24,091 nt of DNA from the IMG/VR virus record IMGVR_UViG_3300037071_000418, positions 1 through 24,091 of that record; one strand, 5' to 3'. Below, one piece after another: positions 2,337 through 24,091 of the stretch; positions within the stretch are counted from its first letter, which is position 1, and each line of letters opens with the position of its first letter. The translations under genes were made by a program, and so were the position numbers. The notes beneath the pieces were generated by a model. It worked only from the letters and a program-made list of their open reading frames with translations, was not told where the DNA came from and searched no databases. Source of the DNA: a virus.

Positions 2337-4235
2337 ATGAATCGCGCCTATTCGCTGCTCGACGTCAAGTCGGTCGAGGAAGATGCCAGGATAATTCGCG
2401 GCGTGGCGACGACGGTCAGGGCCGACCGCATGGACGATATCGTCGATCCGGAAGGTGCCAAATTCGCGCTGCCGCTGCCGCTGCTATGGCAGCACGAAAG
2501 CCGCGAGCCGATTGGCCACGTCACTGAGGCGAAAGTAACCAAGGACGGCATCGAGGTCGTCGCGCAGATCGCCAAGGGCGTCAGCGCGGACATCGACGTC
2601 TATTGGGCGAAGATCAGGGCCGGGCTGGTGCGCGGCCTGTCGATCGGATTTCGCAGCATCGAGACGGAGCGGATCAAGGATTCGCGCGGCCTGCGCTTCA
2701 AGTCGTGGGAGTGGCTGGAGCTGTCGGCTGTGACGATTCCCGCCAATGCCGAAGCCAGCATTCTCACCATCAAGCAATTCGACACCGGCGCGCCGGCCTT
2801 CACTGGCCAGCAGCGCGACGGCGACGTGCCGCCCGGCGCCTCGGGCAAGACCGTAACCGTCAAACCCGAAAGGAAGAAACCAATGAACGCCAATGTTCCG
2901 ATCGCCGAGCAGATCTCGGCCTTCGAGGCCAGCCGCGCGGCCAAGACCGCCAGGCTGCTGGCCATCATGGCCGAGTCCGATGGCGCCACGCTCGATGAGG
3001 CGCAAAAAGAGGAATACGACTCCACCCGTTCCGAGTTGGTCGAGATCGACGAGCACCTGGTGCGGCTGGGCGAGATCGAGCGGCTGAACAAGTCCGAGGC
3101 CAAGCCGGTCGGCGACAAGATGCCCGAACCGGTGAAGCGGCTGACGCCGCGTATCGAGGTGCGCGGGACCAACCTGCCGAAAGGCACCGCGTTCACCCGC
3201 TATGCGATGGCCCTGGCGCGCAGCAAGGGCAATCTCGAATCGGCCGCCAACCAGGCCAAGGCATGGACCGATACGCCGGAAGTGGAAACCGTGCTGAAGG
3301 CGGCCGTCGCAGCAGGCACCACCAGCGATACGACGTGGGCCAAGCCGCTTGCGGAATATACGGCGATGGCATCGGAGTTCATCGCCATGCTGCAGCCCGC
3401 GACCATCGTTGGCCGCATGCCGGGACTGCACCGAGTGCCGTTTAGGATCAAGATCCCGCGGCAGACCGCCGGCGCATCGGCCGGGTGGGTCGGCGAGGGC
3501 GCGCCGAAGCCGCTGTCGAAGCAGGCGTTCGACACCATCCAGCTCGAAGCCTACAAGGTGGCCGTGATCGTGGTCATCACCGAGGAGCTGGCGCGGTTCT
3601 CGAATCCGTCGGCCGAGGCCTTGATCCGCACGGACCTGATCAGTGCGATCTCGAAATTCATCGACCAGCAGTTCCTCGATCCGGCCAAGGCATTGAGCGC
3701 GGGCACCTCGCCGGCCTCGATCACCAACGGCGTCGCCGGGCAGACGCCGTCCGGCACCACGCTGGCGGCGGCCTTCACCGATCTTGCCAAACTGGTAAAC
3801 CTGTTCGCGACCGCCAATCACCCGATGACATCGATGGCATGGGTGATGACGCCGGCCAGGGCGGCCACGCTCGGGCTGTCGCGCAATGTCATGGGCGTGC
3901 CGGAATTCCCCAGCCTCGGCGCCGATGGCGGCACGTTGATGGGCTTCCCGGTGATCACCTCGACCAACATCACGCCCGGCAGCAGCAGCGACCGCATCTT
4001 CCTGATCGAAACCTCAGAGATCCTGTTCGCTGATGATGGCGTAACGCTGGATATCTCACGCGAGGCCTCGTTGCAGATGAGCGATGCGCCGGACAATCCG
4101 GCCACCGCCACCACGGTGATGGTATCGCTGTGGCAGAACAACCTGGTCGGCATCCGTGCCGAGCGGTTCATCACCTGGCTGCCGCGCCGCACCGGCATCG
4201 TGCAGTGGATCGAAAACGCTGCCTACGTGCCGTAG
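2337..4235 (+). CDS. Prohead protease-major capsid protein fused in one reading frame
   Basis: The frame from ATG 2337 (preceded by AGAAGGAG) encodes 632 residues in two parts. Residues 1-182 look like an HK97 gp4-type prohead protease (S78/U35 family): probable catalytic His53 in LLWQH, Ser102 in RGLSIGF and Glu128 in WEWLEL. Residues 183-632 are an HK97-fold major capsid protein. They begin with a charged coiled-coil delta (scaffold) segment, about 183-255, followed by the shell domain with typical ASAGWVGEGAPKP and VVITEELARFS stretches. No stop codon separates the two, but a good ribosome-binding site precedes Met183 at 2883. Both the fusion and free capsid protein (450 residues) may therefore be made. 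The same frame is open upstream to 2133, but that part is a shadow of the preceding gene. Fused protease-capsid genes are known in some phages. Confidence 0.93.
   Translation: MNRAYSLLDVKSVEEDARIIRGVATTVRADRMDDIVDPEGAKFALPLPLLWQHESREPIGHVTEAKVTKDGIEVVAQIAKGVSADIDVYWAKIRAGLVRGLSIGFRSIETERIKDSRGLRFKSWEWLELSAVTIPANAEASILTIKQFDTGAPAFTGQQRDGDVPPGASGKTVTVKPERKKPMNANVPIAEQISAFEASRAAKTARLLAIMAESDGATLDEAQKEEYDSTRSELVEIDEHLVRLGEIERLNKSEAKPVGDKMPEPVKRLTPRIEVRGTNLPKGTAFTRYAMALARSKGNLESAANQAKAWTDTPEVETVLKAAVAAGTTSDTTWAKPLAEYTAMASEFIAMLQPATIVGRMPGLHRVPFRIKIPRQTAGASAGWVGEGAPKPLSKQAFDTIQLEAYKVAVIVVITEELARFSNPSAEALIRTDLISAISKFIDQQFLDPAKALSAGTSPASITNGVAGQTPSGTTLAAAFTDLAKLVNLFATANHPMTSMAWVMTPARAATLGLSRNVMGVPEFPSLGADGGTLMGFPVITSTNITPGSSSDRIFLIETSEILFADDGVTLDISREASLQMSDAPDNPATATTVMVSLWQNNLVGIRAERFITWLPRRTGIVQWIENAAYVP
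2871..2885 (+). promoter_or_regulatory. Internal ribosome-binding site and in-frame ATG for free major capsid protein
   Basis: AGGAAG at 2871-2876 lies 6 bases before ATG 2883-2885, which is in frame with the protease start (codon 183). The residues after this ATG (MNANVPIAEQ...) are a typical start of an HK97-type capsid protein with its delta domain. A preserved start signal suggests capsid protein is also translated separately, giving many more capsid subunits than protease. Inference from sequence only. Confidence 0.7.
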
Positions 4236-4525: not shown

Positions 4526-5866
4526 ATGCGGATCTTCGGACTCCAGATCACCAAGGCGGCCACGAGCAATCCGCCGCAGCCGGTCGACGGTTTCCGCGGC
4601 TGGTGGCCGGTCATCCGCGAATCCTACACCGGCGCCTGGCAGCGCAACGACGAAATCCGCGTCGAGGACTGGCTGTCGTTCTGGCCAGTCAACAAATGCA
4701 TCAGCCAGATTTCGTCGGACGTGGCCAAGATGCGGCTGAAGCTGGTCAGCAAGGACGACGACGGCATCAAGACGGAAACCGATTCAGCGGCGTTCTCGCC
4801 GGTTATCCGCAAGCCGAACGCCTACCAGAATCGCATGCAGTTTTTTGCCTGCTGGGTGCAGTCGAAACTGATCCACGGCAATACTTACGTTTTCAAGCAA
4901 CGCGACCAGCGCGGAGTGGTGGTGCGGCTGCATGTGCTGGATCCGAGCCGGGTGACGGTGCTGACGGCGCCGGACGGCGCGATTTTCTACGAATTGCGCG
5001 GCAACTGGAATCTGGCCGGGTTCGGCGACGAGCAGGTGACGGTGCCACAGCGCGAGATCATCCACGACCGCCAGGACACGTTCTATCACCCGCTAGTCGG
5101 CCTCTCGAAAATGTATGCGGCCGGTGGCCCGGCGCTGCAGGGGCTGGCGATCCAAAAGAATGAAACCGCACTGTTCGCCAACGGATCCCGGCCTGGCGGC
5201 GTACTCACCGCGCCAGGAGCCATCGCCGACGAGACGGCGCGGCGGCTCAAGGATTATTTCGACCTGAACTATACCGGCAGCAACGCCGGCAAGACCGCGG
5301 TGCTGGGCGACGGCCTGAAATACGAGGCGATGGCCTTCAAGGCGGTCGATGCGCAGGTCATGGAGCAGCAGAAGTTTGCCGCCGAGGCGATCTGCGCGGT
5401 GTTCGGCGTGCCGCTGCACAAGATCATGAATACCCAGCTCACCGCCGGCAACGTCGAGGCGCTGGAGCAGCAATATTATTCCAATACCCTGCAGTCCTAC
5501 ATCGAGGCGATCGAGATTGGACTGGACGAAGGGCTGGAGCTGCCGGTGCCCTACGCGACCGAGTTCCATATCGACGACCTGATCAGGATGGATACGGCCA
5601 GTCACGTCAAGGCGCTGGCCGAGGCGGTCGGCGCCGGCATCATGTCGCCCAACGAGGCCAGGCGGCGGATAAACCTGGGGGCGGTCAAGGGCGGTGCCTC
5701 GCCATACCTGCAGCAGCAGAATTTCTCACTCGCAGCACTCGACAAGCGCGACCGTGACGATCCGTTTAGCAAGCCGGCGACGCCGGCAGTAGCACCGCCG
5801 GTCAACGACAATGCCGAGGCCGCCGCGAAGATGCTGGGAGGGGAGCGCTATGTCCGATCGCGCTGA
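4526..5866 (+). CDS. Portal protein (HK97 family)
   Basis: Forms the dodecameric ring at one capsid vertex through which DNA enters and leaves and onto which the tail is built. 446 residues, normal for the HK97 portal family (PF04860). Recognisable stretches: VNKCISQISSDVAKM near 55-69, LIHGNTYVF at 115-123, LDPSRVTVL at 138-146, NGSRPGGVLTAPG at 219-231 and VFGVPLHKI at 292-300. The C-terminus is Pro/Ala-rich and probably disordered. ATG 4526 follows the previous stop codon with no gap. The gene lies downstream of capsid rather than between terminase and protease, an uncommon order. Its 3' end overlaps the next gene by 17 bases. Confidence 0.95.
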   Translation: MRIFGLQITKAATSNPPQPVDGFRGWWPVIRESYTGAWQRNDEIRVEDWLSFWPVNKCISQISSDVAKMRLKLVSKDDDGIKTETDSAAFSPVIRKPNAYQNRMQFFACWVQSKLIHGNTYVFKQRDQRGVVVRLHVLDPSRVTVLTAPDGAIFYELRGNWNLAGFGDEQVTVPQREIIHDRQDTFYHPLVGLSKMYAAGGPALQGLAIQKNETALFANGSRPGGVLTAPGAIADETARRLKDYFDLNYTGSNAGKTAVLGDGLKYEAMAFKAVDAQVMEQQKFAAEAICAVFGVPLHKIMNTQLTAGNVEALEQQYYSNTLQSYIEAIEIGLDEGLELPVPYATEFHIDDLIRMDTASHVKALAEAVGAGIMSPNEARRRINLGAVKGGASPYLQQQNFSLAALDKRDRDDPFSKPATPAVAPPVNDNAEAAAKMLGGERYVRSR

Positions 5867-10061: not shown

Positions 10062-10286
10062 CGGGAATACGCCACGCCTGGAGGACTGGTCAGCGATGCT
10101 GAAGATCGCAATTTCGGGCTTCCTGGCGGCTACATCGGTGTCACGCCAGCGGCGACAGGCGGTGGCGGCAAGCCCGCCAAGATCTGGAACGGCAGCGCGT
10201 GGGTCGAGAAGCCCGCCAAGATCTGGAACGGCAGCGCGTGGGTCGAGAAGCCGGTGAAGATCTGGAACGGCAGCGCATGGGTGTGA
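10056..10286 (+). CDS. Small protein ending in three WNGSAWV tandem repeats
   Basis: 76 residues from ATG 10056 (ATGA overlap). The first ~38 residues are Gly-rich with no recognisable domain. The rest is three 13-residue repeats of the form KPAKIWNGSAWVE, and the protein ends exactly after the third AWV. The same motif (KVWTGSAWV) closes the LamG-type protein at 19897-20685. WxGxxW repeats of this kind occur at the C-termini of phage tail and capsid-associated proteins and may bind glycans or cap a fibre; the role is not established. The last 10 bases overlap the next gene. Confidence 0.75.
   Translation: MSREYATPGGLVSDAEDRNFGLPGGYIGVTPAATGGGGKPAKIWNGSAWVEKPAKIWNGSAWVEKPVKIWNGSAWV
10170..10286 (+). 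repeat. 39-bp tandem repeat, three copies
   Basis: Units at 10170-10208, 10209-10247 and 10248-10286. The first two are identical; the third differs at a few positions and ends in the stop codon. Each codes for KP(A/V)KIWNGSAWV plus one linker position. Identity of the first two units suggests recent duplication or slippage. Confidence 0.95.
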
Positions 10287-10654
10287 TCCAACTGCGCGAG
10301 TGGTCGGTGACGACGCTGGCCGCACATGGCGCGCTGGATGACGAACAGGTGACGGCGGCGCAGCGGTTCTGCCGCTCCTGGGAGGCCGTGCATGGCGTGC
10401 GGGCGGCTAACTGCTTCACCGAGCGCGTCGACAGCGGTCGGCCGGCGACCTCGTTCGCCGAGACCAGCATCAATGCGGCGGCTGATCTTCGGCATGCCAG
10501 GATCCTGCTCGGCGAGCATGGCTACGCCCTGGTCGGCAAGGTCTGCGGCGACGGCTACCACATCCGCGACCTCTACCGGACGCGCCGCGAGCGGGATACC
10601 GCCGCCGACATGCTCAAGGTTCATTTGACTGCCCTAGCGCGCATGTGGGCGTAG
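10277..10654 (+). CDS. Helical protein resembling DUF6456/antitermination-type domains
   Basis: 125 residues from ATG 10277; a GTG at 10283 is an alternative. The pattern AAQRFCRSWEAVHGVRA...ERVDSG near the N-terminus, then a helix pair and YALVGKVCGDGYHIRDL near the C-terminus with a final helix LKVHLTALARMW, recalls the DUF6456 proteins of alphaproteobacteria, which are compact helical domains of unknown role. Such proteins have been compared with phage late regulators, but this link is weak. The gene ends the fibre cassette and is followed by the only sizeable gap in the late operon, which carries a promoter-like sequence. A regulatory role is possible but not shown. Confidence 0.65.
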   Translation: MGVIQLREWSVTTLAAHGALDDEQVTAAQRFCRSWEAVHGVRAANCFTERVDSGRPATSFAETSINAAADLRHARILLGEHGYALVGKVCGDGYHIRDLYRTRRERDTAADMLKVHLTALARMWA

Positions 10655-10723
10655 AATGCCGCTGGCGTGGCAAAGGAAGCCCCTACAGCGCGTTCGTGGG
10701 TGTGGGTGCCAGAAAGTACCACA

Positions 10724-10753
10724 TTGACACGGGCGCGCGTCTGGGGGCTTAAT
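10724..10753 (+). promoter_or_regulatory. Candidate sigma-70-type promoter inside the late operon
   Basis: TTGACA at 10724-10729 (perfect -35) and CTTAAT at 10748-10753 (-10 like) are separated by 18 bases. They lie in the 130-bp gap 10655-10784, the only noncoding stretch over 100 bp before the terminator, and point toward the gp10-like tail genes. The gap otherwise holds only a 23-codon frame with no support. The -10 match is moderate. Confidence 0.45.
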
Positions 10754-10784
10754 GGCGCATTCCCAAAAATTGTGAGCAGCCGAG

Positions 10785-11267
10785 ATGCAGGTCACCGCAA
10801 AGGTGCGCGGAAGCCGTGAGACGTCGGCGGCGCTGCGTGCGCTGGCGAAGCAGGTGGCCGTACCGCTTAACGCGACGTCCCGCTTTGCCCTGCAGCCGAC
10901 GCTGACTGCTGCTCGGCGCAATGTGCGGGCGCTGCAGTTCGAGGAAAGCACCGGGGCGCTCGCCGCCTCGCTCACCATCAAGCGTCTGCCGAAATCCTCC
11001 AAGGTCAATCCGCGCTACCGCGTCGGGCCGGCCGCCGACTTCCAGCGGGGAGACCGCAAGCCGGTGAAATACGCGCACCTGGTGGAGTTCGGCACGGTGC
11101 CGAAAACACGGGCCGGCGGCATCGAGTGGCCCGGCTCGGCGCCGCATCCGTTCCTGACGCCGGCCTATTACGAGACGCGCGACGAGGTCGTGAAGCGGTT
11201 CGGTGCCAGGATCGGTCCCGAGATGGAAAAGCGGGCGGCCAAGTTGAACAAGAAAGTTCCGCGCTGA
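10785..11267 (+). CDS. HK97 gp10-like neck/tail-completion protein
   Basis: 160 residues. The hallmark KYAHLVEFGT at 95-104 and APHPFLTPAY at 119-128 identify the HK97 gp10 family, whose members join head and tail or complete the tail end. The N-terminus (MQVTAKVRGSRETSAALRAL) also fits. This restores the standard siphovirus order after the fibre cassette. ATG 10785 has only a weak upstream purine run. The stop codon overlaps the next start (TGATG). Confidence 0.88.
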   Translation: MQVTAKVRGSRETSAALRALAKQVAVPLNATSRFALQPTLTAARRNVRALQFEESTGALAASLTIKRLPKSSKVNPRYRVGPAADFQRGDRKPVKYAHLVEFGTVPKTRAGGIEWPGSAPHPFLTPAYYETRDEVVKRFGARIGPEMEKRAAKLNKKVPR

Positions 11268-11602
11268 TGCCCGAAGGCATCCCGTCGATCGGCGAACTCG
11301 ATCGTCGCATCGAGCTGCAGCACAACACGCCATCGGGGAGCAACGACTACAACGAGCCGATCGAGGTCTGGGCGACATACGACGAGGTCTGGGCCATGCT
11401 CGAATTCCACCGCTCGACCGAGAGCGAGGCATCGGCGCGCGAGTTCGCCGACTTCGGCGCCTACTTCACCGTCCGGTACCGCACCGACGTGCTGGCCGAG
11501 GACCGCATCGTCTACGAGAGCAATATCTACGAAATCATCGGGCGGCCTCGCGAACTTGGCCGGCGCCAATACCTCAAGGTGCAGGCGAGGCTGATCGAAT
11601 GA
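11267..11602 (+). CDS. Phage head-tail adaptor protein
   Basis: 111 residues from ATG 11267. IGELDRRIELQHNTPSGS at the start, WAMLEFHRSTESEASAREFA in the middle and YEIIGRPRELGRRQYLKVQA at the end are typical of the head-tail adaptor/head-closure family (SPP1 gp16, HK97 gp9-like), small beta-barrel proteins that close the connector. The size is normal for the family. It sits between the gp10-like and tail terminator genes, as expected, and its stop overlaps the next start as ATGA. Confidence 0.88.
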   Translation: MPEGIPSIGELDRRIELQHNTPSGSNDYNEPIEVWATYDEVWAMLEFHRSTESEASAREFADFGAYFTVRYRTDVLAEDRIVYESNIYEIIGRPRELGRRQYLKVQARLIE

Positions 11603-12000
11603 TCACCGCCGTTTCGCTCGCCATCAAGGCGCTGTCGGCACAGTCCAGCGTGACCGCCATCGTCGGCGACGTTTCGGGGACGCGCATCTATGTGTCGCCG
11701 CTGCCGCAGGGCACGGCGTTGCCGGCCATTGCCGTCGCGCTGACCGCCGAGGACGAGGCGATGCTGCTGGCCGGCTCGTCGCAATATCCGGAATCGTCGG
11801 TGCAGATCCATTGCCTGGCGGCCAAGGGATCGGCGGCGCTCGATCTCGGCGAGACGGTCAAGCTCGCGCTGCGCGACCTGCTGTTCACGTCGGGAGCGAT
11901 CAAGGCTTCGTTCACCAAGGAGCCGATCGATTTTCAGGACTTCGCCGACGACCAATCCACCGCTCGCCGCGTGATGTCGTTCGGCATCCGCTGGCGCTGA
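11599..12000 (+). CDS. Tail terminator protein (DUF3168)
   Basis: 133 residues. An N-terminal helix (AVSLAIKALSAQSSVTAIVG), the strand segment TRIYVSPLPQGTALPAIAV and a C-terminal ...ARRVMSFGIRWR are typical of DUF3168 proteins, which form the ring that ends tail-tube growth and docks the tail to the head. Position just before the tail tube gene agrees. Coupled to the previous gene by ATGA. Confidence 0.88.
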   Translation: MITAVSLAIKALSAQSSVTAIVGDVSGTRIYVSPLPQGTALPAIAVALTAEDEAMLLAGSSQYPESSVQIHCLAAKGSAALDLGETVKLALRDLLFTSGAIKASFTKEPIDFQDFADDQSTARRVMSFGIRWR

Positions 12001-15583: not shown

Positions 15584-16395
15584 GAAGCTGGGATGCAACC
15601 CTGCTCACCATGCTCGGCGGCAGTGAGATCACCCGCTGCTTCCTGGCCGAGCTGACCAACCCGACCGGCCAGATCGTCCGCGTCACCAGCCACGATGTCG
15701 ACCGGGTCGTCGGCGCGGAAACCTATGTCAAGACGCCCGGCTTCGACCTGTCGCGCTACACCGTCAAGAACGGCGGCGAGGCGGCAACCATCGATTTCGA
15801 AATGTCGCTGTCGAACGACGGGCCGATCCTGATCGAGGACGTGCGCCGCGGCGCATGGCGTGGCGCGACGATCGTCGTGTGGGTCGCCCATACGGCCTCG
15901 CCGGCAAACCGCAACATCATCGCCCAGGGTTTCGTTGGGCGCACCGACTTCAGCGATCGCCTGCAGGGGCGCATAGAGCTCGTCACCTTGGCCGATGCGC
16001 TCAAGGACGTGGTCCTGCTGACGATCCAGCCGGCGTGCCCGTTCAAGTTTTGCGGCCGGGAATGCGGCGCCGATGAAGCGACATGGACGCGGGCCGCGAC
16101 AGTAACCGCCGCCATCAGCCGCAGGAAGTTCACTGCCACCATCACCAGTCCCGGCGTTCTCGACTTCACCCACGGCAAGGTTTCATGGACAAGCGGCGCC
16201 AATGCCGGCGCGGACGGCTGGGTGCGCCAATGGGACTCCGGCACGGGGACGGTCGCGATGGTGACCGACTTCCCGTTCGACATCGCGGTCGGCGACAATT
16301 TCAACGTGCTGGCCGGCTGCAAGAAGAACCGCGCCGACTGCGCAGCCTATGACAACATCGACCGCTATGGCGGCTTTGACTTCGTGGCGCTCTGA
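15580..16395 (+). CDS. Baseplate hub protein, phage BR0599/DUF2163 family (GTA gp13-like)
   Basis: 271 residues from GTG 15580, which overlaps the preceding TGA as GTGA. The family (DUF2163/TIGR02218) forms the tail-tip hub. Conserved cysteines are visible at 153, 158 and 162 (CPFKFCGREC) and at 247 and 254 (CKKNRADC). Related hub proteins, including lambda gpL, hold an iron-sulfur cluster through such cysteines, so metal binding is likely by analogy. In gene transfer agents a cell-wall peptidase gene follows; here the next gene is the tail-tip protein instead. Confidence 0.93.
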   Translation: MRSWDATLLTMLGGSEITRCFLAELTNPTGQIVRVTSHDVDRVVGAETYVKTPGFDLSRYTVKNGGEAATIDFEMSLSNDGPILIEDVRRGAWRGATIVVWVAHTASPANRNIIAQGFVGRTDFSDRLQGRIELVTLADALKDVVLLTIQPACPFKFCGRECGADEATWTRAATVTAAISRRKFTATITSPGVLDFTHGKVSWTSGANAGADGWVRQWDSGTGTVAMVTDFPFDIAVGDNFNVLAGCKKNRADCAAYDNIDRYGGFDFVAL

Positions 16396-17681
16396 TGGCG
16401 ATTACCTTAACCGGCGCAGGCTCCGCTTCGTTCGCCGCCTCGCAGGCAGCTTGGCTCAACCCTGGGCCGACGTCGTCGACCGAGGTCACGGTATCGCCGG
16501 CGGAGCTGACGGCCAGGACGGACACGAACACTGCGCAGCAGGGGCTCGGCCGGTCATTGCCTGTCGTCATCGGAACCGGCCGTGTCGACGGCGTCTATTT
16601 CGTTGGCGGCGTCGAGACGGTTTCAACCGTGACGACAGAGACGACGACGGAGCCGCCACCGGAACAGACCATCGTCGTCGTCGGCAGTACGGCGGGCGCC
16701 GCGTCGCAGGCCGCCTCGCAGTGGAATTGGTATAACGGCGGCAGCACCACCACGTCGACAAGCACGACGGAGACCGAAAACCGGACGATGGCCGGCTATG
16801 TGCTGGCCTATGACCCGTTCGAACGCGGCTATGACCTGATCCGGCTGGAGATCGACGGCGGTGTCGTCTACGACAGCGAGGCCGGGATTCCAGCCGCGAC
16901 GACCTTCCGCTTTTATGGCGGCCGGCATACGTCGACCGACGAGATCCTGACCGAGATCATCGGCGCCAATACCGGCGCCTACAAAAACTTCGTGATGGTT
17001 TTCATCGACGGCTATCCCGCAGATTCACCGCCGGGCGTGTCGGCCGTGATCTCGAATGGGCCGACGCTGATAGCGAGCCTGTTCATCGATTTCGTCAATC
17101 AATACGCTGAACTCAACAGTGCCGAAGTGCCGTGGGCCTCGCTGTCAACGATCTTCACGGGCGGCACCATCGACGCAGGCGGCTGGTATGGTGGTTCGGG
17201 GCTTGCTGGAGGTAACGGCTCGATAGTCGGCGATGCTCTGAACGTATTCACCAATGATGCAGGCATCACCATTGTCGAAGAGTATTCAATTGGCCAAACT
17301 TACAACCTCTCAGGCCAGCGTGTTCAGTTCAATACGAACGGCCTCAACGATCTTTTCATAAATCCAAAGCATCTCGGCGTGGAGATCCAGGACCAGACTG
17401 GGCCCGATGTCATATACGTTGGCAGTGATGTCGCCGGCATCTCCCGCATCGCTGTCTCGGTGGACAATACGAACTTCCACGGTTCGCAGAATGGCTCTGC
17501 CGTGGTGAGCGGCAACCTGGGATCGCCGCCACCATTCTCGACGGACAGCGGGACGTCCCAGGTCACTGTCTTCACTGCGAATAACACCGGCACCCTCGCG
17601 GAAGGCGCACGCCTCCGCTCAATCCGCGTCGGGCCGTTTACGGCACCGGCTGATCTTCCCTCACTTTCCACGGTGGGATAG
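16395..17681 (+). CDS. Tail-tip protein, N-terminal part
   Basis: 428 residues from ATG 16395. Residues 1-225 include SLPVVIGTGRVDGVYFVGGVE, a Thr-rich loop (VSTVTTETTTEPPP), a Ser/Thr segment, and YVLAYDPFERGYDLIRLEID with RFYGGRHTSTDEI; this resembles the N-terminal part of large rhizobial tail-tip (gpJ/megatron-like) proteins. From about residue 255 the sequence changes to a beta-rich region of unknown type coded by lower-GC DNA. The frame ends in TAG 17679-17681, after which the same frame stays open and continues as the next gene. One protein may have been split in two, or readthrough may occur. Confidence 0.82.
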   Translation: MAITLTGAGSASFAASQAAWLNPGPTSSTEVTVSPAELTARTDTNTAQQGLGRSLPVVIGTGRVDGVYFVGGVETVSTVTTETTTEPPPEQTIVVVGSTAGAASQAASQWNWYNGGSTTTSTSTTETENRTMAGYVLAYDPFERGYDLIRLEIDGGVVYDSEAGIPAATTFRFYGGRHTSTDEILTEIIGANTGAYKNFVMVFIDGYPADSPPGVSAVISNGPTLIASLFIDFVNQYAELNSAEVPWASLSTIFTGGTIDAGGWYGGSGLAGGNGSIVGDALNVFTNDAGITIVEEYSIGQTYNLSGQRVQFNTNGLNDLFINPKHLGVEIQDQTGPDVIYVGSDVAGISRIAVSVDNTNFHGSQNGSAVVSGNLGSPPPFSTDSGTSQVTVFTANNTGTLAEGARLRSIRVGPFTAPADLPSLSTVG

Positions 17682-17684
17682 ACC

Positions 17685-19511
17685 GTGCCGACAAAACGCG
17701 ACCTTAAGGATGTGATCATCGATGTCATGTCGCTGGCCGGCTTCGGGCCGGCCGATCTGACTTTCGAGGGGTTCGATGGCATCCAGACCTATGGCTTCGT
17801 CATCGCCAGCGACACCACGATCCAGAACGTGGCGCGCTCGCTGTCCGACATTTACGGCTTTACCTGGTGCGATACGGGTTCCGGTTTCTACTTCAAGAAG
17901 GCGGCGCAGGACGAGCTCTTCACGATCGATGCCGCGCTCGACGCGGTCGATATCGTGGAGCGCCCGCAGCCGGTGCTGTCGAGCGACGATGCAGACATCC
18001 GCACGCCGTCCTCCGTCGAGATGGAATACGTGTCCAAGGAGGGCGGCTACAAATCCCGGCCGGTCTCGTTCAACATGACCACCGGCGTCCTGAACTCGAT
18101 TACGACGCCGCGGCTGTCGACGCCGATCCTGTTAGACGATGCGGAAGCGCAGCGGGTCGTCACTGAGAAGTTCTTCGAATACCAGGAGAAACGCCGCGAT
18201 CACAGCCTGGTCGTGGCGCCCGAAAACATCGCCCTGCTGCCCGGCGACGTCGTTTCCTTCCCGTCCGGCGACATTACCTACATCACGCGAGTCGAGGGGG
18301 TCGGCATCGACCTCCGCAACATGGGCGTCGAGATCAGCGCACGCGACTTCCAGACCGAGGTCGCGACTAGCATCACGGCCGTCAGCAACCATCCACCGGT
18401 CTGGCAGGTGGTCTACCTTGCTAGCGTATATGTCCATCTCGACATGCCGCTACTGCGCTACGAAGACGATACCGCCGGCGCCGAGCTGGTCCAGTACGGC
18501 GCCCTGTTTTCGAGCGGCGCGAATCTGTGGTCGGGCGCCACGCTCTATCGCAGCCCGCTGACGACGGGCTATGCCGCAATCTTCGACCAGCTGCCGCATG
18601 CCGGCGTCCGCGGCGTCTGCCTGACGGTCCTGCCCGCGCCGGCCGACCCGTTTGCGCTCGACGATGGCTCGACCCTGACCATCCGCCGCATCACCGCCGC
18701 CGCCACCCTGCTGGTCGACGCCACCGAGGCAGAGGTGCTGGCCGGCGTCAACAATGCGCTGGTCGGCGTCAACGGCCGCTGGGAATGGGTCGGATACAAG
18801 ACGGTCGACGACCATGGCGACGGCACCTACACGCTCGGCGGGTTCACGCTGAGAGGCTATCGCGGCTCGGAAGTGTTCTGCGGCAGCCACGCGGTCGACG
18901 ACGTGTTCATCATGATCGACGACGGTTGGGTGCGGAAGATGCTGCACCCGATCGCCGCGCTCGACGGCACGTTCTACTACAAGGCGCCCGGCCTGGGCCA
19001 AAACCTGAACTACGTTGCGGCGACGACGCATACCATTCCCGGCACGGCCGAGACGCCCTATGCGCCGACCAGCCTCAAGGCCGATACAGGCAGCCCGGAC
19101 GGCATCGACATCAGCTGGGACTATCGGTCGAGGATAACGACCGGGTTCAATCCGGCCGAACACGGCGAGGCGACGCTGGCGTTTCAGGTCGATATCTATG
19201 ACACGGACGGCACGACCTACATCCGCACGCTGACGACGGCCACGAATTCCGTCCACTATGCCTCGGCGGATGTGATCACGGATTTTGGCTCGGATCCTCC
19301 GGCTGAATGTTTCTTCCGGGTCTTTATGATGTCGGCGCTGCCGATCTTCGTCGCTGGCCAGGATCGGCCCGTCGCGGGGCGCGGCTATGAAGCCCGCGGG
19401 CATTTCCCGACAGTTGCGCTGCTGCTGTCCGGCGACATGCAGAGCGGCACCGACCATGTCAAACTGTCTGGCGATGCGGCGCCCGGCAATCTGCTGCTGA
19501 CCGAGGGATGA
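17685..19511 (+). CDS. Tail-tip protein, C-terminal part (gpJ/megatron-like)
   Basis: 608 residues from GTG 17685, with GGTGGGA 6 bases upstream as a possible ribosome-binding site. The start KRDLKDVIIDVMSLAGFGPADL, followed by GYGFVIASDTT-like and SLSDIYGFTWCDTGSGFYF stretches, matches the central hub domain of tail-tip proteins, which normally continues from an N-terminal part in the same chain. C-terminal half: beta domains and a fibronectin-like segment (APTSLKADTGSPDGIDISW). It lies one codon after the previous stop in the same frame (TAG, ACC, GTG). It probably contacts the host surface together with the upstream part. Confidence 0.85.
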   Translation: MPTKRDLKDVIIDVMSLAGFGPADLTFEGFDGIQTYGFVIASDTTIQNVARSLSDIYGFTWCDTGSGFYFKKAAQDELFTIDAALDAVDIVERPQPVLSSDDADIRTPSSVEMEYVSKEGGYKSRPVSFNMTTGVLNSITTPRLSTPILLDDAEAQRVVTEKFFEYQEKRRDHSLVVAPENIALLPGDVVSFPSGDITYITRVEGVGIDLRNMGVEISARDFQTEVATSITAVSNHPPVWQVVYLASVYVHLDMPLLRYEDDTAGAELVQYGALFSSGANLWSGATLYRSPLTTGYAAIFDQLPHAGVRGVCLTVLPAPADPFALDDGSTLTIRRITAAATLLVDATEAEVLAGVNNALVGVNGRWEWVGYKTVDDHGDGTYTLGGFTLRGYRGSEVFCGSHAVDDVFIMIDDGWVRKMLHPIAALDGTFYYKAPGLGQNLNYVAATTHTIPGTAETPYAPTSLKADTGSPDGIDISWDYRSRITTGFNPAEHGEATLAFQVDIYDTDGTTYIRTLTTATNSVHYASADVITDFGSDPPAECFFRVFMMSALPIFVAGQDRPVAGRGYEARGHFPTVALLLSGDMQSGTDHVKLSGDAAPGNLLLTEG

Positions 19512-22132: not shown

Positions 22133-22309
22133 ATGGATAAGCTTCTTTATGTGATCGGCGTGTTGTTTGTTGGGACTGCCATTATGACGTTTCCGCAAGT
22201 CAAGAGCGCGATCCATCAGATTCTGGTCGGGCTCGATTTCGGCTTCGGCTTCATGATCATCGGAATAGGCGCCGTTGTGCAGGCCATCAAGCAGGTGAGG
22301 GCAGCCTGA
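22133..22309 (+). CDS. Small two-span membrane protein
   Basis: 58 residues from ATG 22133, with TTAGGA just before it. Two hydrophobic spans at about 4-20 (LLYVIGVLFVGTAIM) and 33-49 (FGFGFMIIGIGAVV). No family recognised. First gene of the unit that has its own promoter; an in-frame ATG at 22082 falls on the -10 region and is less likely. Small membrane proteins expressed apart from the late operon can act in superinfection exclusion or lysis timing, but nothing here decides this. Stop overlaps next ATG. Confidence 0.7.
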   Translation: MDKLLYVIGVLFVGTAIMTFPQVKSAIHQILVGLDFGFGFMIIGIGAVVQAIKQVRAA

Positions 22310-22611
22310 TGAAAAAACTACTCATGTTGATGCTGGTCCTGACAACGGCTCCGGCTTACGCCGGCGACAATCGGGCGCTGTGGATCTGGTACGGGTTGAA
22401 CGGCGCACCATCGCCGCAGCGGCATCAGGACAGGCAGCGGTACGACAACAATGACCCGTACAGGCGGCAGCACGAGCAGTGGAATTCGGGCAACGGCGAT
22501 TTCAAATATTCGGGCAACGATCTTACTCCGTGGCACCAGAAACGAGCGACCGGCACGATGAACTGCGCCCGTCTCAATGACGGGTCGACCGTTTGCGTGT
22601 CGCAGCAATAG
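22309..22611 (+). CDS. Exported small protein with C-terminal cysteine pair
   Basis: 100 residues from ATG 22309 (TGATG coupling). Signal peptide MKKLLMLMLVLTTAPAYA is classical, with likely cleavage after residue 18. The mature protein is very polar and rich in Gln, Asn, Arg, Asp and Tyr in the middle (PQRHQDRQRYDNNDPYRRQ), with aromatic patches (WIWYG) and Cys86 and Cys96 near the end (NCARLNDGSTVC), suited to a disulfide in the periplasm. No known family. May act on the cell envelope. Confidence 0.75.
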   Translation: MKKLLMLMLVLTTAPAYAGDNRALWIWYGLNGAPSPQRHQDRQRYDNNDPYRRQHEQWNSGNGDFKYSGNDLTPWHQKRATGTMNCARLNDGSTVCVSQQ

Positions 22612-22624
22612 GAGGCGCAAAGCA

Positions 22625-22828
22625 ATGGCCCTCATGCTTGGAGCCTTGCACCGCGCGCTGATCGGCGCCGGTGCAACCGAGGACGACGCCCGCAAGGCGG
22701 CCGAGGAGGTCGCCGGCTTCGAGAACCGGCTGGCTAAGGTCGAGGGCGACCTGATGCTGCTCAAGTGGATGGTCGGCACCAATATCGTTCTTAGCCTCGG
22801 CATTCTCGGAAAGGTGATCCTGATATGA
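22625..22828 (+). CDS. Coiled-coil protein with C-terminal membrane anchor (DUF1640-like)
   Basis: 67 residues from ATG 22625, with GGAGG 9 bases upstream. An N-terminal helical part (LGALHRALIGAGATEDDARKAAEE) leads to a short coiled coil (FENRLAKVEGDLMLLKW) and a membrane span at the end (MVGTNIVLSLGILGKVILI). This layout recalls short Bdr/DUF1640-type proteins found in many alphaproteobacterial prophages; function unknown. ATGA overlap with the next, similarly built gene suggests they work together. Confidence 0.75.
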   Translation: MALMLGALHRALIGAGATEDDARKAAEEVAGFENRLAKVEGDLMLLKWMVGTNIVLSLGILGKVILI

Positions 22829-23021: not shown

Positions 23022-23216
23022 ATGAACGCAACCGAACTCGCGCGCCAGGTGAAAGCCTGGCGCGGCAAGGTGCCGGCTAGGGTGGCCGCCGAGCAGATCG
23101 GCGTGCCACGGCGCACGCTGGAATGGATCGAGCAGGGCAATGGCTTCCGCTATCCGGAGCTGCTGCTGATCGCCCTCGAGGCCACAAGAGACCAGATCCG
23201 TGAGGGAAGCAAATGA
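23022..23216 (+). CDS. Short helix-turn-helix DNA-binding protein (XRE-like)
   Basis: 64 residues from ATG 23022, GGAGG 6 bases upstream. ARVAAEQIGVPRRTLEWIEQ at about 21-40 is a helix-turn-helix (AAxxIGVxxxTLxxIE), followed by GFRYPELLLIALEA as the packing helices. This is a minimal Cro/XRE-type fold without an extra dimerisation domain. It is a candidate regulator of the operon it belongs to, possibly through the dyad at 22043-22071; that is inference. ATGA overlap with the next gene. Confidence 0.78.
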   Translation: MNATELARQVKAWRGKVPARVAAEQIGVPRRTLEWIEQGNGFRYPELLLIALEATRDQIREGSK

Positions 23217-23431
23217 CTGAGGACACAGTCGCGATTGAATTCATGGGGCGCCAGCTCGACCGGGTCATCACCGAAATCTCTTCCCTGCGCGATGACATGA
23301 CCGTGCTGACGGCGATCGTCATGCGCATGGACGGGACCATGACCGGGCTGCTCACCGAAACCCGCGCGGTCCATTCGCAGATCAGTCGCATCGCCGAGCG
23401 CGTGCGCAAGATCGAGGAGGTGCGGCCATGA
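23213..23431 (+). CDS. Small coiled-coil protein
   Basis: 72 residues, ATGA-coupled on both sides. After the start VAIEFMGRQLDRVITEISSL the whole protein is a heptad-patterned helix (LRDDMTVLTAIVMRMDG, then SQISRIAERVRKIEEV). Similar small proteins occur in many rhizobial prophages, commonly beside lysogeny genes. No function known. Confidence 0.72.
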   Translation: MTEDTVAIEFMGRQLDRVITEISSLRDDMTVLTAIVMRMDGTMTGLLTETRAVHSQISRIAERVRKIEEVRP

Positions 23432-23565
23432 AGCATCCTGATTATCCCGGCGTCTCGTCGATGACCGATCGCCACGGCAAGCAGCGGTGGCGATTCCGGA
23501 AGGGCGGCAAGGTCGTGATGATGCATGGTGAACCTCACACGGTACGGTTCGACGAGGATTATCGG
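23428..23565 (+). pseudogene. 5' fragment of a tyrosine-type phage integrase
   Basis: ATG 23428 with GGAGG upstream and ATGA coupling looks like a genuine gene start. The first ~46 residues (DYPGVSSMTDRHGKQRWRFR, then HTVRFDEDYR) resemble the N-terminal arm-binding region of rhizobial phage integrases (recalled resemblance). After Arg46 (codon 23563-23565) the likeness ends abruptly. The frame runs on to 23853 but is then antisense to the excisionase-like gene and codes Arg/Pro-rich nonsense. The core-binding and catalytic domains (Arg-His-Arg-Tyr) are absent. A full integrase needs about 300 more residues. Confidence 0.6.
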
Positions 23566-23566
23566 C

Positions 23567-23674
23567 CTCAACCATCGTGTCGAAGGACACCGGCGAGACG
23601 CCGACATGGCGGGCCGCCTGCTCGCGCGACATGCCGATCGGCGGATAGGAGAGAGGATCAGGCTTCAGGGTCAT
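23567..23674 (-). pseudogene. 5' fragment of an excisionase-like helix-turn-helix gene
   Basis: Read leftward from ATG 23674. The residues MTLKPDPLSYPPIGMSREQA followed by ARHVGVSPVSFDTMVE are typical of the winged-helix excisionase/AlpA-like proteins beside rhizobial integrases: SREQAARHVGVSPVSFD is the helix-turn-helix. Likeness ends at about Glu36; beyond it the frame is antisense to the integrase fragment (open to 23150). The usual C-terminal part with a Trp-rich ending is missing. The start overlaps the end of the upstream minus-strand gene by 17 bases, so it belongs to that leftward operon. Confidence 0.6.
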
Positions 23675-23879
23675 GGCTTCTTTCGCGCCTCTTCAAACCC
23701 GCTTCGGTCAGATGCCAGATCAGATCGCCCTTCCGGACGATGTCCCGCCACTCGAATATGGAAATGATGGTGACGTCTCCGTCGCAGATTTTTGGCATGC
23801 CGTCCGATAAAGAGGTGTGGCCAACCCTAGCTCGCCCGCATTTGGCGCAGTAGTAAACGCGTTCATCCCGAGCAATCAC
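23658..23879 (-). CDS. Small zinc-ribbon-like protein
   Basis: 73 residues from GTG 23879, with GGAGG 5 bases upstream; a TTG at 23891 would add four residues but lies on that ribosome-binding site. YYCAKCGRARVGH gives a CxxC knuckle, with another Cys in PKICDGD, so a partial zinc-binding site is possible. The C-terminal half has a short helical WRDIVRKGDLIWHLTEAGLK. Lies between a small membrane protein and the excisionase-like gene in a leftward operon. No named family recognised. Confidence 0.7.
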   Translation of the reverse strand: MIARDERVYYCAKCGRARVGHTSLSDGMPKICDGDVTIISIFEWRDIVRKGDLIWHLTEAGLKRRERSHDPEA

Positions 23880-23880
23880 C

Positions 23881-23991
23881 TCAGCCTCCAAACACCAGCC
23901 ACCACGCGCCGGTCCATGCCGCCAGCGCCACGGCGAACGACACGCAGAACACCCACAGAAAGTCGAGCGCGGGACCGGGTCGGACGATCAC
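23881..23991 (-). CDS. Very small membrane protein
   Basis: 36 residues from GTG 23991, which overlaps the upstream stop as GTGA. After IVRPGPALDF comes one hydrophobic segment (LWVFCVSFAVALAAWTGAWW), enough for a single membrane span. The stop is 1 base before the GTG of the next minus-strand gene. Tight coupling on both sides is the main evidence that it is real. Confidence 0.6.
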   Translation of the reverse strand: MIVRPGPALDFLWVFCVSFAVALAAWTGAWWLVFGG

Positions 23992-24091
23992 TGCGCGCTC
24001 TCCAGGTATTTCGTGGCGGCCTTCGGCGTCAGTTCCTTGCGTACTACCTTGGCGGCGGTCGAGACCACGTCCTTGATGGTGTCGGCCGACA
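23988..24091 (-). CDS. C-terminal end of a gene entering from the right, unknown
   Basis: Partial. The last 33 residues are visible (ADTIKDVVSTAAKVVRKELT...KYLESAQ), a Lys-rich amphipathic helix. The start lies beyond the window. The stop overlaps the GTG of the next small gene. Too little is visible to name a family. Confidence 0.6.
   Translation of the reverse strand, partial: SADTIKDVVSTAAKVVRKELTPKAATKYLESAQ

Follow-up and report, generated by a model that had tools for sequence, protein, structure and literature searches.

Near one end of a viral contig, an integrase-like gene (int) on the plus strand and an excisionase-like gene (xis) on the minus strand meet tail to tail, each lacking its 3′ part. 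How did this arrangement arise, and is it a real feature of a phage genome? The contig, IMGVR_UViG_3300037071_000418, constitutes an entire IMG/VR virus record that is classified as linear; all of its 24,091 bp were analyzed and are referred to here as the window. In our opinion, the locus is probably the product of a recent, ordinary deletion of ~1.3 kb in a convergent int/xis pair, which left an integration-deficient phage or a grounded prophage.

Gene content of the record

According to PHROG matches, the plus strand runs from near a terminase gene at its start through head, portal, and tail genes, and then through small genes, to int. Likely genes tile 98% of positions 1–23431, and almost every late gene is open. 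Little of the early region is included in the record, which ends ~525 bp beyond the junction and carries no host flanks. No tRNA was found in the 24,091 bp, and no Rfam family matched the window or loci L010, L011, L014, and L023. The source element is best explained as siphophage-like and temperate, with an alphaproteobacterial (rhizobial) host. Features around the junction are collected in Table 1.

Table 1. Features at and around the int–xis junction, in window coordinates
Feature	Position	Strand	Remarks
Two small genes (100 aa and 68 aa)	22309..22828	+	Also upstream of int in L011
HTH protein gene	23022..23216	+	Left-hand synteny marker; 89% nucleotide identity to L011, where it immediately precedes int
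72-aa gene upstream of int	23213..23431	+	Absent from L011; 4-base overlap with int start
Tyrosine integrase 5′ remnant, 46 codons, without catalytic domain	23428..23565	+	tblastn, alignment, profile search
Deletion junction (probable), 7 bases assignable to neither gene	23563..23569		CGGCCTC; codon-level comparison with L011
Excisionase-like HTH 5′ remnant, 36 codons, without RMPxP...VWD part and C-terminus	23567..23674	-	Alignment, tblastn
Small membrane protein gene and 3′ end of RecT-like gene	23881..24091	-	Right-hand synteny markers; adjoin xis in L011 and L023

The 72-aa gene that precedes int has one viral relative, in L021. Between xis and the membrane protein gene lies a 77-aa ORF with a CxxC motif (23658–23891, minus strand), for which no relatives were found in the viral contigs searched. 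Elsewhere in the record, a single tail-tip gene (phrog_4271) is divided by an in-frame TAG into two ORFs of the same frame (16395–17681 and 17685–19511). This gene is uninterrupted in L010 and L012–L015; in L011 a stop occurs close to where the window has its TAG, whereas L014, which is almost identical in this part, has none. Between these phages, the tail-tip protein differs in its middle part (swapping of a domain at a single site). The TAG could be a nonsense lesion, could be followed by a GTG restart, or could be read through.

Both genes lose their family resemblance at the junction

The N-terminal parts encoded by the two genes match full-length integrases (~375 aa) and excisionase-like proteins of 76–82 residues. 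The ATG of int at 23428 overlaps the stop codon of the preceding gene as ATGA, and the ORF begins MKHPDYPGVSSMTDRHGKQRWRFRKGGKVVMMHGEPHTVRFDEDYR. It corresponds to the first 46 residues of ~375-residue integrases from four viral contigs and two alphaproteobacterial genomes (L002, L003, L005, L007, L008, and L011), with 57–70% identity (tblastn, E 1e-12 to 6e-18). These residues, which comprise the N-terminal arm region, align to all six full-length integrases with a gap of at most one residue. The integrase profile matches the window with E 2.6e-28, but over model positions 1–59 of 374 only, and the last invariant residue is Y45, whose codon ends at 23562. Thus, the loss of integrase resemblance after codon 46, which an earlier note on this DNA had described, is borne out. 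The catalytic domain with its R...HxxR...Y residues is missing: a search for PF00589 across the whole record gave no match up to E 10. Nor was another tyrosine or serine recombinase, integrase, or resolvase domain detected in the 24-kb record, from which the early region is mostly absent.

On the minus strand, the ORF that starts at 23674 begins MTLKPDPLSYPPIGMSREQAARHVGVSPVSFDTMVE and represents the first 35–36 residues of complete 76–82-residue proteins encoded near those integrases (about 49–77% identity). The first helices of the HTH are retained, since SREQAARHVGVSPVSFDTMVE aligns to all relatives. The second half of the protein (RMPKP...VWDR...DIAF) is missing from the alignment after codon 36; a position occupied by D in all aligned relatives is not D at codon 37 of the window (23564–23566). 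The claim of the earlier note that this gene lacks its 3′ end therefore holds as well. Intact relatives have a match to phrog_25900 (regulator) and a weaker one to phrog_66 (excisionase and regulator); the family match, together with the position near int, points to a putative role as an excisionase.

Family resemblance stops at int codon 45/46 and at xis codon 35/36, which are 2–7 bases apart. Codon-level comparison places the join within the 7 bases given in Table 1, in agreement with the earlier estimate; these ambiguous bases may include the short microhomology that the earlier note proposed. Neither remnant has a stop of its own; both frames run open past the join as each other's antisense, producing ORFs of 141 and 174 aa, the antisense tails of which have no significant Pfam or PHROG match. 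A 19-nt imperfect inverted repeat surrounds the junction (23448–23466 and 23585–23603), where int codons 8–13 resemble xis codons 25–30. It was considered as an aid to the deletion and set aside: the L011 sequences at these places are unlike by eye, so that the repeat is probably due to chance.

Could the two ORFs be functional short DNA-binding proteins, for example decoys, maintained by selection? The frames are open and conserved residues are kept at both, as such proteins would be expected to show. No relative with the same ends was found, however, and all are full length; moreover, the HTH protein would lack its second half, and the tails of the two ORFs are antisense to each other. Of 71 viral loci that carry xis together with int, 70 have an int that matches 90% or more of the model, and the exception is cut by a contig end. 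Because int is near full length in all 70 relatives not so cut, the short ORFs are remnants rather than a conserved mini-pair, a reading that was rejected; the earlier note had named homologues with the same short ends as grounds for abandoning its proposal, and none of the relatives has such ends. We consider selection for short functional proteins here barely credible.

Relatives with an intact module

The closest relative, found via a tail protein search, is L011 (IMGVR_UViG_3300037119_005152), a 20.5-kb contig with ~82% nucleotide identity over the late genes. It contains a complete int at 10104–11240 (plus strand; 378 aa; PF00589 with E 1.1e-12, phrog_1 with E 8e-26) and, facing it at a distance of ~190 bp, a complete xis at 11433–11660 (minus strand), with attP-like repeats between them. 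The flanks of this module are those of the window: the genes for the HTH, 100-aa, and 68-aa proteins on the left, and the membrane protein and RecT-like genes on the right. The 72-aa and 77-aa genes are absent from L011. Relative to L011, the window lacks approximately 10239–11558, i.e., ~1.32 kb comprising int codons 46–378, the intergenic region, and the xis codons after ~35; int codon 45 ends at 10238 of L011, and the retained part of xis starts near 11559.

A second relative, L023, has a convergent int/xis pair in the same order as L011 and, in addition, a second xis directly after int. The right-hand markers are 73% identical in nucleotide sequence to L011 11666–11876, and 23993–24091 is 91% identical to L023; overall, the identity of the window flanks to this lineage is 82–91% to the left and 73–91% to the right of the junction. 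The join is not one between unrelated phages, a possibility that we rejected because both of its sides belong to the same lineage. These closest syntenic relatives, intact and convergent, agree with the proposal that a single deletion in a convergent pair cut both 3′ parts. The convergent ancestor assumed in that proposal is present in L011 and L023, but it is not the usual state: of 71 viral loci with both genes, 66 are co-directional, with xis upstream of int, three are convergent, and two are divergent. L011 belongs to the convergent minority. Inversion plus deletion of a co-directional xis–int module, of the kind seen in L002, L003, L005, L007, and L008, was also considered and was dropped, as L011 and L023 are convergent.

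The sequences closest to the int remnant at the N-terminus, with 70% identity over 46 aa, are prophage integrases of Aquamicrobium defluvii and a member of Rhizobiaceae (L007 and L008). Unlike the gene in the window, these are full length, have xis upstream on the same strand, and adjoin a pdxH-like host gene. The nearest annotated integrase of an isolated phage is the tyrosine integrase of Agrobacterium phage Rivra (PV764937), which is 45% identical to that of L011; the gene is complete, and its neighborhood differs from that in the window.

The int locus of L023 has been repeatedly rearranged. In the reverse complement of that contig, an int 5′ remnant and an unrelated ORF (3153–3407) precede the real int, and the second xis occupies 4555–4788. 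The second xis, the 8-codon int remnant (MKHPDYPGG) upstream of the real int, and the variable int/xis layout among relatives would all suit an int cassette that is a rearrangement hot spot subject to swapping, in which case the window would represent a replacement in progress, and the element would use a different recombinase, encoded by the absent early region. The lack of any other tyrosine or serine recombinase in the 24-kb record speaks against such a replacement, which we regard as very improbable.

The intergenic region missing from the window

The intergenic region of L011 contains repeated GGTTATCCA motifs and a 17-nt inverted repeat, whose arms (GCCTCGTAAGCCTTTGA and TCAAAGGCTTGCGAGGC) are separated by 50 nt. 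The region folds more stably than shuffled sequences (z -3.0). L023 shares 92% identity with L011 over L011 positions 11263–11657, a segment that takes in the intergenic region and xis. The CGTAAGCCTTTGA core of L011 recurs in L054, the third and divergent convergent locus (intergenic region at about 5229–5460), which suggests that convergent modules may share an att core. Judged by their sequence, the L011 repeats resemble core and arm sites and would constitute attP; no attB, attL, or attR was identified. In the window, these attP-like motifs do not occur above chance. The earlier note had ascribed the absence of a terminator between the converging genes to the deletion. Indeed, no terminator-like site lies between the remnants, but the proposed cause is not borne out, since the single terminator-like match in the L011 intergenic region is no better than chance and attP-like repeats are found there instead.

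Origin and age of the junction

The ancestor of the window would have resembled L011, with int ending the late strand, xis ending the early operon on the opposite strand, and the attachment region between them. A single deletion of ~1.3 kb would then have fused the two genes tail to tail, at codon 45/46 of int and codon 36/35 of xis; the core-binding and catalytic domains of the integrase would have been lost along with the second half of Xis and the probable attP. The event looks recent, with no sign of long decay at the locus, because both remnants keep their start codons, open frames, and conserved residues. The dN/dS values fit a recent deletion or an artefact and argue only against a long-decayed locus: they are ~0.15–0.65 for the int remnant against relatives with computable dS (0.15 to L008) and 0.44–0.88 for the xis remnant (0.74–0.88, close to neutral, against L011 and L023), and over 46 and 36 codons, respectively, they are weak evidence on age.

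It counts against a deletion that the junction is present in one contig only, at ~525 bp from its end. The junction 21-mer occurs in no other viral contig searched, and 397 genomes of the order, searched at the DNA level, yielded short partial matches only. A library or assembly event, e.g., a local template switch in amplified DNA, might have skipped int, attP, and xis of a phage that is in reality intact. Chimeric joins are common at the ends of contigs, the contig is linear, and the good conservation of the remnants would be expected of such an artefact. A random chimera, however, would not be expected to unite two sides that come from one phage lineage and are correctly ordered and oriented. 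The join shares at most a few bases, and a k-mer assembler needs real reads across a join of this kind; furthermore, a skip of 1.3 kb exceeds a normal short-read insert. On balance, an artefact, although the main alternative to the deletion, appears unlikely, and we infer that the deletion is present in natural DNA.

If it is, the element most likely no longer integrates or excises by its own recombinase, and it would be a derivative that is integration-deficient or obligately lytic, or else a grounded prophage. In grounded (cryptic) prophages, loss of the recombinase or of an att site blocks excision (PMC6379469). The window shares this loss, its int being truncated and the attP-like repeats absent; it differs in that its late genes are nearly all open and that it is known from a viral contig alone, without host flanks. 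The lesion is of a familiar type, an ordinary loss of the lysogeny module, and a search of the literature on spontaneous deletions of such modules found no direct rhizobial case.

A wider interpretation, which we consider improbable, is that phage populations of the rhizobial lineage carry int–attP–xis deletions as a standing variant, giving rise to lytic-only or recombinase-borrowing phages, convergence being what allows int, xis, and attP to disappear together in one short deletion. Whatever its frequency, the deletion at this locus, if real, means that integrase, attachment site, and excisionase are removed together by one small event, because the genes converge on attP. In that case, it would also be a mistake here to infer a temperate phage from nothing more than a piece of the integrase gene.
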